DNA from: Deltaproteobacteria bacterium RIFCSPHIGHO2_02_FULL_40_28
GTDB lineage: Bacteria; UBA10199; 2-12-FULL-40-28
Length of the DNA stretch: 38,904 nucleotides
Reading direction: 5' to 3'
NCBI GenBank assembly: GCA_001798135.1
Contig: MGRJ01000003.1
Span: 1 to 38,904 of the forward strand
A program made the translations under genes and the position numbers. This document shows, in pieces, positions 22,835 to 24,936 of this stretch (positions within the stretch are counted from its first letter, which is position 1; every line of letters starts with the position of its first letter). The notes beneath the pieces were generated by a model. That model was not told where the DNA came from and did not search any database. It was given only the letters and a program-made list of their open reading frames with translations.

Positions 22835-23521
22835 TCAACTCCGTTTTTCCGACCTTTTAAGACCCTCTTGGATTTGTTCGCTATTTTCTTTCTGATGGGA
22901 CGTGAGATTTACAATTTTTGCATAATCTTCTTGAAGAGATTTAAAATAGGTTTTGGCTTCCTCATACTTTCCTTCTTCTAAAAGAACTTGGGCCCACAAA
23001 AGCCTATTTTCCAGATCAAACGAATCAACATCCAAAGCTGCTCTAGCATAATGTTTGGCACGTTCACTATCTTTTACAATGCTATTTTTAGAAAGTGCAA
23101 AGGAAGGAACTTTAAGATAAATATTTCCCAAAACACGATAAGCTCCCCCCGCTTCAAAGCGAGGGTCAAGGCTTACAGACTTTTCACAATCGGCGATAAT
23201 TTCTTTTAATCCACCTTGGTAGCCCAAACCTTTTACTTTGTAATAAAGACCTGTGTTAACAGCTCGATAATAATAACAAGCTGCAGAATCTGGAAAAGAA
23301 TGAATGCACCTGTTGGCCCATAAAATTCCTTTTTTGGCATATTCCATTTTTTTCTGAGGGATGGGTTCATTCATCGAGTCTTCTGAAGCCTTTTGAGAAG
23401 CATAGGCTAAATTTTCTATTTTCCAAGTATCACACTGGGCGGGAGGTTTAAGCGAATCCTTTAAAGTAGCTTGGCAGGAAATAAGAAATAATAAAAAACC
23501 AATTTCCAATTTACATTTCAT
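22835..23521 (-). CDS. TPR-containing predicted lipoprotein
   Basis: The start at 23521 gives a good lipoprotein signal: MKCK, a hydrophobic run, then the lipobox LISC with Cys at about residue 16. AGGGG lies 5 nt before it. The mature protein carries tetratricopeptide-like repeats (DSAACYYYRAVNTGLYY; EKSVSLDPRFEAGGAYRVLGNIYL; ARAALDVDSFDLENRLLWAQVLLEEGKYEEAKTYF). The first part resembles the TatT component family of TRAP-associated lipoproteins, but this is tentative. It probably sits on the periplasmic side of a membrane and binds partner proteins. Downstream of it is ssb. Confidence 0.7.
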   Translation of the reverse strand: MKCKLEIGFLLFLISCQATLKDSLKPPAQCDTWKIENLAYASQKASEDSMNEPIPQKKMEYAKKGILWANRCIHSFPDSAACYYYRAVNTGLYYKVKGLGYQGGLKEIIADCEKSVSLDPRFEAGGAYRVLGNIYLKVPSFALSKNSIVKDSERAKHYARAALDVDSFDLENRLLWAQVLLEEGKYEEAKTYFKSLQEDYAKIVNLTSHQKENSEQIQEGLKRSEKRS

Positions 23522-23565
23522 GTGATCCCCTCTACCATGGCCCAAATAAAAAAACGAGGAACTTT

Positions 23566-24936
23566 ACGAAAAACACCATTGCAATCATACTCGCTGCTGG
23601 AATCGGCAAAAGGATGAAAAGCACCAAACCTAAGGTGCTCCACGAAGTAGGTGGCATTCCTTTGATTTGGCATCCATTGAGGCTTTGCCAAGAATTAAAA
23701 ATAAAAGAAGCTTATGTCGTCATTAGCCCTTTCCTTAAAAAACTAACTCTCCCAAAAAATATTTCAGTCAAAACAACTTTGGTAGAACAAAAAAAACCAT
23801 TGGGAACAGCTCATGCCGTGATGATGGCCTTAAAAAAAATAAAAAAGACTCAGGGGGATATTTTGATCTTAAATGGTGACACCCCTTTAATTAAGAAAGA
23901 AAGCATTGGTCAATTATTTCTGGAAAGAAAAAGACTTGCTTCTCCTTTTGGTTTTCTTTCTTCTCTTTTTCATAATCCTGCCGGGCTTGGACGTGTCATG
24001 CGCCATACGGGCGGGTTGGTTTCACAAATTGTTGAAGCTAAAGATGCCACTCCCTTCCAACTCCAAACCCATGAAATTAATGCTGGGGTGTATTCGGCAA
24101 ATCTATCTTTCTTAAAAAATAATATCAAAGGGGTAAAAACAAAAAATAAACAAAAAGAATATTACTTAACCGATTTAGTTCAGGCTGCAACTCACAAAAA
24201 CCTTGATGTGGTTGCCATTCCTATTCATGAAACAGAAGCCATTGGAATTAATACCCAACAAGAATTAGCAAAAGCCAACCAACTCTTTTTTTCAAGAGAG
24301 ATTACAAAAAAAATGGAAGAAGGTGTTAGTTTTATCCATCCAGAATCTGTGGTCATCGAAAATAATGTAACCATTGCACCTGGCACCAAAATTTACGGCC
24401 CCTGTTTTTTAGGGCAGGGAAATCACATCGGAAAAAATTGCATCATTGAGCAGGGTTGCCAAATCCATAATTCCCAAATTGAAGAAGGAGTGCATATCAA
24501 AGCATTTAGTTATGTAACCAATGCCTCTATCGGTTCTCAAACCATCATTGGCCCCTTTGCTCATTTAAGACCACAAACAAAACTAGGAGCCCATGTAAAG
24601 GTAGGAAATTTTGTGGAAATTAAAAAAAGCATCGTTGATCGTAATTCGAAAATTAATCACTTAAGTTATATTGGTGATGCTTTTATTGGAAAACGCGTTA
24701 ACATTGGAGCCGGAACTATTACTTGTAACTATGATGGAATTAAAAAATATCAAACCATTTTAAAAGATGATGTCTTTGTAGGAAGTAGCACGCAATTTGT
24801 AGCCCCTGTCACCATTGGCGCGGGTGCTTTTATTGGAGCAGGATCCACCATTACCAAAAATGTTGAATCCCAAAGCTTGGCTTTATCCCGTACACAACAA
24901 AAACAAATCAAACATTGGGTTAAAAAGAAAAGGTAA
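23566..24936 (+). CDS. glmU: Bifunctional GlmU (UDP-GlcNAc pyrophosphorylase / glucosamine-1-phosphate acetyltransferase), probable ACG start
   Basis: The protein makes UDP-GlcNAc for peptidoglycan and LPS. The N-terminal uridyltransferase shows LAAGIGKRM, TKPKVLHEVGG, LGTAHAV and NGDTPL. The C-terminal half is a left-handed beta-helix of hexapeptide repeats with GNFVEIK, NHLSYIGDA and AGTITCNYDG. The first in-frame ATG (23614) would delete LAAGIGKR, a conserved nucleotide-binding loop. Upstream the frame is open back to a stop at 23482-23484 but has no ATG, GTG or TTG. GAGGA (23556-23560) lies 5 nt before an in-frame ACG at 23566, which would give KNTIAIILAAG and 456 aa, the usual length. 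An out-of-frame ATG at 23537 followed by an A7 run (23548-23554) could alternatively join by -1 slippage. Divergent from the TPR lipoprotein gene. Confidence 0.85.
   Translation, partial: TKNTIAIILAAGIGKRMKSTKPKVLHEVGGIPLIWHPLRLCQELKIKEAYVVISPFLKKLTLPKNISVKTTLVEQKKPLGTAHAVMMALKKIKKTQGDILILNGDTPLIKKESIGQLFLERKRLASPFGFLSSLFHNPAGLGRVMRHTGGLVSQIVEAKDATPFQLQTHEINAGVYSANLSFLKNNIKGVKTKNKQKEYYLTDLVQAATHKNLDVVAIPIHETEAIGINTQQELAKANQLFFSREITKKMEEGVSFIHPESVVIENNVTIAPGTKIYGPCFLGQGNHIGKNCIIEQGCQIHNSQIEEGVHIKAFSYVTNASIGSQTIIGPFAHLRPQTKLGAHVKVGNFVEIKKSIVDRNSKINHLSYIGDAFIGKRVNIGAGTITCNYDGIKKYQTILKDDVFVGSSTQFVAPVTIGAGAFIGAGSTITKNVESQSLALSRTQQKQIKHWVKKKR

Follow-up and report, generated by a model that had tools for sequence, protein, structure and literature searches.

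ACG as the probable start codon of glmU and pyrG in an uncultured bacterium

RESULTS AND DISCUSSION

Two essential proteins of the uncultured Deltaproteobacteria bacterium RIFCSPHIGHO2_02_FULL_40_28, the cell-wall enzyme GlmU and the CTP synthase PyrG, are probably started at ACG. Judging from the DNA, we consider it likely that a real T-to-C change turned the ATG of glmU into ACG with GlmU still starting at that codon, and that pyrG has undergone the same kind of change. The window analyzed here comprises 38,904 nucleotides of contig MGRJ01000003.1, and the genome carrying it (G000) is a fragmented draft of 2.16 Mb in 31 contigs, with 100% completeness.

Organization of the glmU 5' end

The glmU frame, read directly from the sequence, is open from 23485 to 24933, between a preceding TAA (23482-23484) and the terminal TAA (24934-24936) (Table 1). 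The description given earlier by a sequence-only reading was borne out when the sequence was reread, with all coordinates correct: no ATG, GTG or TTG occurs in frame between the upstream stop and the ATG at 23614, this ATG encodes the M of the conserved LAAGIGKRM (LAAGxGxRM motif), GAGGA stands 5 nt 5' of the in-frame ACG, and both the A7 run and the out-of-frame ATG are present. The same reading had expected a GlmU of normal length, 456 aa, from the ACG, and this product matched the profile of the bifunctional enzyme, NCBIfam TIGR01173, almost end to end (506 bits; cut-off, 366.85; profile positions 3-450 of 452). A protein begun at ATG 23614 matches only from profile position 14 onward and lacks the LAAGxG loop; the LAAGxGxRM loop lies inside the product only with a translation start upstream of 23614, for instance at ACG.

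Table 1 Features of the glmU locus (positions in the window)
Feature	Position	Strand	Remarks
Divergent gene, predicted lipoprotein/TPR-like	22835..23521	-	ATG 23521-23519; SD about 23527-23532
Weak promoter-like match TTTACA-17-TACCAT	23510..23538	+	9/12; consensus match only
ATG out of the glmU frame	23537..23539	+	C/T-rich, SD-less upstream; overlaps -10-like hexamer
A7 run	23548..23554	+	Phased A AAA AAA for a -1 shift from ATG 23537
GAGGA, Shine-Dalgarno (SD)-like	23556..23560	+	Spacer ACTTT (5 nt) to ACG
glmU, only copy in genome	23566..24936	+	456 codons from ACG, then stop TAA
ACG, homologous start position	23566..23568	+	8 codons 5' of LAAG
First in-frame ATG, within LAAGIGKRM	23614..23616	+	Conserved loop lost if translation starts here

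The 3' end of the 16S rRNA carries CACCUCCUUU, the usual anti-SD sequence, and the spacing of 5-6 nt between GAGG(A) and ACG in glmU and pyrG is typical of this genome, where the mode is 4-7 nt. Moreover, the ribosome-binding region and leader of glmU were less folded than 199 of 200 shuffles, while the SD itself is short (a GAGG core), which counts against a start at ACG. The ATG and SD of the divergent gene leave just 44 nt to the glmU ACG. The promoter-like match, as a consensus match only, would start a transcript just 5' of GAGGA and thereby exclude ATG 23537.

Homologous position and copy number of glmU

The 5' end of glmU was compared with those of seven order-level relatives (45-49% identity), the nearest of those compared, and of about 80 wider relatives. 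All seven start glmU with ATG, at 8, 8, 8, 8, 8, 9 and 7 codons before LAAG, and the wider relatives have, with one exception, a canonical start 5-14 codons before LAAG (mode, 7-8). This comparison, proposed as a check by the sequence-only reading, puts the ACG of the window at the same distance (8 codons) as five of the seven order-level ATGs, and the alignment sets the T encoded by ACG against the M of relatives, among them MKNHTAIVLAAG and MKNLSAIVLAAG. Since both position and alignment match the start of the relatives, the simplest view is that the ACG is the former start codon after a single-base change. A second intact glmU, the presence of which had been raised as an objection, was looked for across the 2.16-Mb assembly, and none was found; glmU is single-copy. 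Separately, the glmU of a Nitrospirae MAG (L029:2550) has no ATG, GTG or TTG at the usual distance before LAGG, with CTG 5 codons before LAGG.

A second case in pyrG

A scan of stretches of the same genome for coding signal 5' of the first canonical start, in which the coding bias was weak, brought up pyrG (CTP synthase) at G000:C9:61878 (L147:1878), where ACG closely follows GGGAGGA. The 5' region reads CTGGGAGGAAGTT-ACG-GTATCAACGGCTAAGACCACCAAGTTTATTTTTGTTACAGGTGG, and the SD and codon together read GGGAGGAAGTT-ACG. The first canonical codon, a TTG, lies 24 codons past the ACG, beyond the conserved VTGGVVSSLGKG. Among relatives of this pyrG (69-80% identity), six have an ATG start and one a TTG start; these lie 9-14 codons ahead of VTGGV, compared with 12 for the ACG. 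Like glmU, pyrG is single-copy, and GlmU and PyrG are both full-length, high-scoring members of their families. The non-canonical codon is conserved in neither gene, with relatives using ATG for glmU and ATG, or TTG in one, for pyrG.

Genome-wide survey

About 1.56 Mb (72%) of the genome was surveyed, with 544 genes whose start position could be predicted from homologues. Only glmU and pyrG (2/544) had an SD followed by ACG while lacking a canonical codon in the vicinity of the expected start. Listing of all GAGG-N4-8-ACG sites revealed no convincing third gene, and ACG was not enriched after SDs genome-wide; thus, ACG is no common start in this genome. The chance level of GAGG plus 4-8 nt plus ACG, taken from 272,785 codons in well-supported genes, is 7e-5 per codon, and at this rate an SD and ACG at the very codon where relatives start is no chance match. 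A reciprocal survey of the order relative G003 (497 genes, list judged by eye) gave no evident case resembling glmU or pyrG. In addition, infC of this genome (L129, G000:C15) appears to begin at ATT/AUU after AGGAGG-CAAT, the customary kind of start for an IF3 gene, indicating that a non-canonical start occurs elsewhere in the genome too.

Other candidates were dismissed, namely, prfB (G000:C15:27811), in which the lack of a proper in-frame start is expected from the RF2 programmed frameshift, a pilin gene with an out-of-frame leader at a homopolymer (T9), shadow ORFs on the opposite strand, and alignments trailing into non-coding sequence. In the type II/IV pilin-like gene (G000:C24:135663; L135:15663), the prepilin leader lies one base out of frame at the T9 run (MRNLQNKLFF / LSPGFTLLE), an offset attributable to slippage, a length variant or an error. 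A dispersed repeat with CCGAGGACTGTCTGACG and its complement was also observed upstream of several genes (G000:C10:14913, G000:C20:8487 and the G000:C15:11720 region).

Proposed initiation at ACG and alternative explanations

Among the options put forward by the sequence-only reading, a glmU start at ACG 23566 is now the best supported, given the homologous position, the normal SD spacing and the recurrence in pyrG. An ancestral ATG would have become ACG through a real T-to-C change, and GAGGA would position the 30S subunit within the unstructured leader. The fMet-tRNA would then pair with the two outer bases of ACG, the middle position being a C.A mismatch, and, as the initiator tRNA would read ACG weakly, full-length (f)Met-Lys-Asn-Thr-Ile GlmU would be made at a reduced rate, with (M)KNTIAIILAAGIGK as the expected N-terminal peptide. 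The pyrG start codon would have changed in the same manner. Both genes have U at -1, and glmU has A at +4; these bases could provide additional pairs with the anticodon loop of the tRNA. Counting against initiation at ACG, a reconstituted E. coli system showed IF3 to demand Watson-Crick pairing at the first two codon bases (PMC10158994), and the output of ACG in an E. coli reporter was about 0.1-1.5% of that of ATG (PMC6925171). Considering this stringency and this weakness, low output is expected unless the organism is more permissive, and its own IF3 sequence is ordinary by eye, which counts against special permissiveness.

It is unlikely that both genes truly start at ATG and that the ACGs arose from an assembly or sequencing error or from a rare variant taken as the consensus. 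In a draft fragmented into 31 contigs, one wrong base would account for each case; however, two independent T-to-C errors at start codons would be required, and the homology-anchored genes included just a single candidate for a broken gene. An upper bound of ~2e-4 errors per base gives 0.26 expected start losses and a P of about 0.03 for two or more, a rough figure that is post hoc to the second case and assumes ~900 bp per gene with most breaks visible, and this P precedes the requirement that both losses be ACG. Because the assembly shows almost no broken genes, two independent base-call errors are disfavored, and the ATG-to-ACG error considered in the sequence-only reading is weakened, with two start codons hit in a nearly unbroken assembly.

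Initiation at another near-cognate codon, such as ATT 23578 in glmU (giving M-A-I-I-LAAG) or the GTA beside ACG in pyrG, appears still less probable. ATT is a known bacterial start (infC), and ATT 23578 is in frame, but 17 nt separate it from GAGGA, it would place just 4 residues ahead of LAAG, a number below that of any clear relative, and the codon at normal SD spacing is ACG in both genes.

A start at ATG 23537 with subsequent -1 slippage on the A7 run (or RNA polymerase slippage to A8) is improbable to a greater degree. Although the phase of the heptamer A AAA AAA suits such a shift, which would yield MAQIKKTRNFTKNTIAIILAAG, ATG 23537 is without an SD and, because it shares bases with the -10-like hexamer of the nearest promoter match, may not be transcribed at all. 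Moreover, the SD-like GAGGA is located 3' of the slip site, and the added residues are absent from relatives. In pyrG, there is neither an A-run or other homopolymer nor an upstream ATG able to feed the frame, and slippage is therefore unable to explain the second case. The A7 option has thus lost ground since it was raised, resting as it does on an SD-less ATG that overlaps the best nearby -10-like hexamer.

We find it hard to credit that glmU is decaying or is translated from ATG 23614 into a truncated protein: that ATG is the first canonical codon, but its use would remove the conserved LAAGxG loop, and the remainder of the gene is intact, with no further GlmU match in the genome.

Equally far-fetched would be a remedy at the RNA level, either by the kind of C-to-U editing found in plant organelles, which would convert ACG to AUG, or by an altered initiator tRNA. 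We know of no bacterial mRNA C-to-U editing system, which counts against the former. Such ACG-to-AUG editing is common in chloroplasts (PMC9845219). In favor of an altered tRNA, this genome carries an interrupted initiator tRNA gene. No uninterrupted copy was found among the tRNA matches of G000, and the two halves of the gene are separated by about 650 nt (G000:C31:81854-81120), so the idea that the genome lacks an initiator tRNA was rejected. However, the same split layout occurs in G006 (G006:C91:20081-20823) and G007 (G007:C13:51670-52404), both of which start glmU and pyrG with ATG; consequently, the interruption is not by itself linked to the ACG starts. The initiator tRNA match is whole or nearly whole in G001-G004. 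In size and place, the interruption recalls the group I intron of cyanobacterial tRNA-fMet, and we take it to be a candidate intron of this kind in the anticodon loop. The tRNA matches of G000 included no tRNA-Asn (GTT), the gene for which may be interrupted like that of the initiator or be located in a gap.

Comparison with known non-canonical starts

ACG is not known to serve as a start codon in bacteria. No natural bacterial ACG start was found in the literature searched, the coverage of which lacks many papers, whereas AUU, AUC, AUA and GTC starts are documented (PMC13009471, PMC5472188). Among the closest parallels, infC, like glmU and pyrG, is essential in bacteria and has an SD followed by a non-canonical start, its AUU, AUC or AUA codon being selected against by IF3 (PMC5472188, PMC13009471). 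However, the mismatch of infC is at codon base 3 rather than base 2, and its starts are conserved and autoregulatory, whereas the relatives of glmU and pyrG have ATG or TTG. The GTC start of Streptomyces sigR is another rare non-canonical start, repressed by IF3 and experimentally shown to function (PMC5472188); it differs from AUG at the first and third bases with the base-2 pair kept, and sigR encodes a regulatory sigma factor, unlike the biosynthetic enzyme GlmU. In Staphylococcus aureus, ccpN (AUA) and cvfC1 (AUU) also use weak codons behind an SD, at about 10-30% of the AUG output (PMC13009471), but with an extended SD and conservation across species, in contrast to the short SD of glmU and a change so far confined to this genome. 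The same codon, ACG, starts genes in chloroplasts, animal viruses and eukaryotes; in plastids, however, it is often edited to AUG, and in eukaryotes it is reached by a scanning ribosome, unlike SD-directed bacterial initiation.

Implications

For annotation, gene finders limited to ATG, GTG and TTG would trim 16 residues, including the nucleotide-binding loop, from this GlmU. GlmU and PyrG both consume UTP, which may be a coincidence given two cases only, and we regard it as doubtful that ACG is a selected, stable start of this lineage that throttles the two enzymes through IF3-sensitive initiation. If this were true, the UTP branch point would be under control at the codon level, and bacteria would have a natural start codon mismatched at its second base. 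Two essential genes with natural ACG starts would add a middle-base-mismatched codon to the working starts of bacteria, and they would test how strict IF3 rejection is in vivo in bacteria only distantly related to E. coli.
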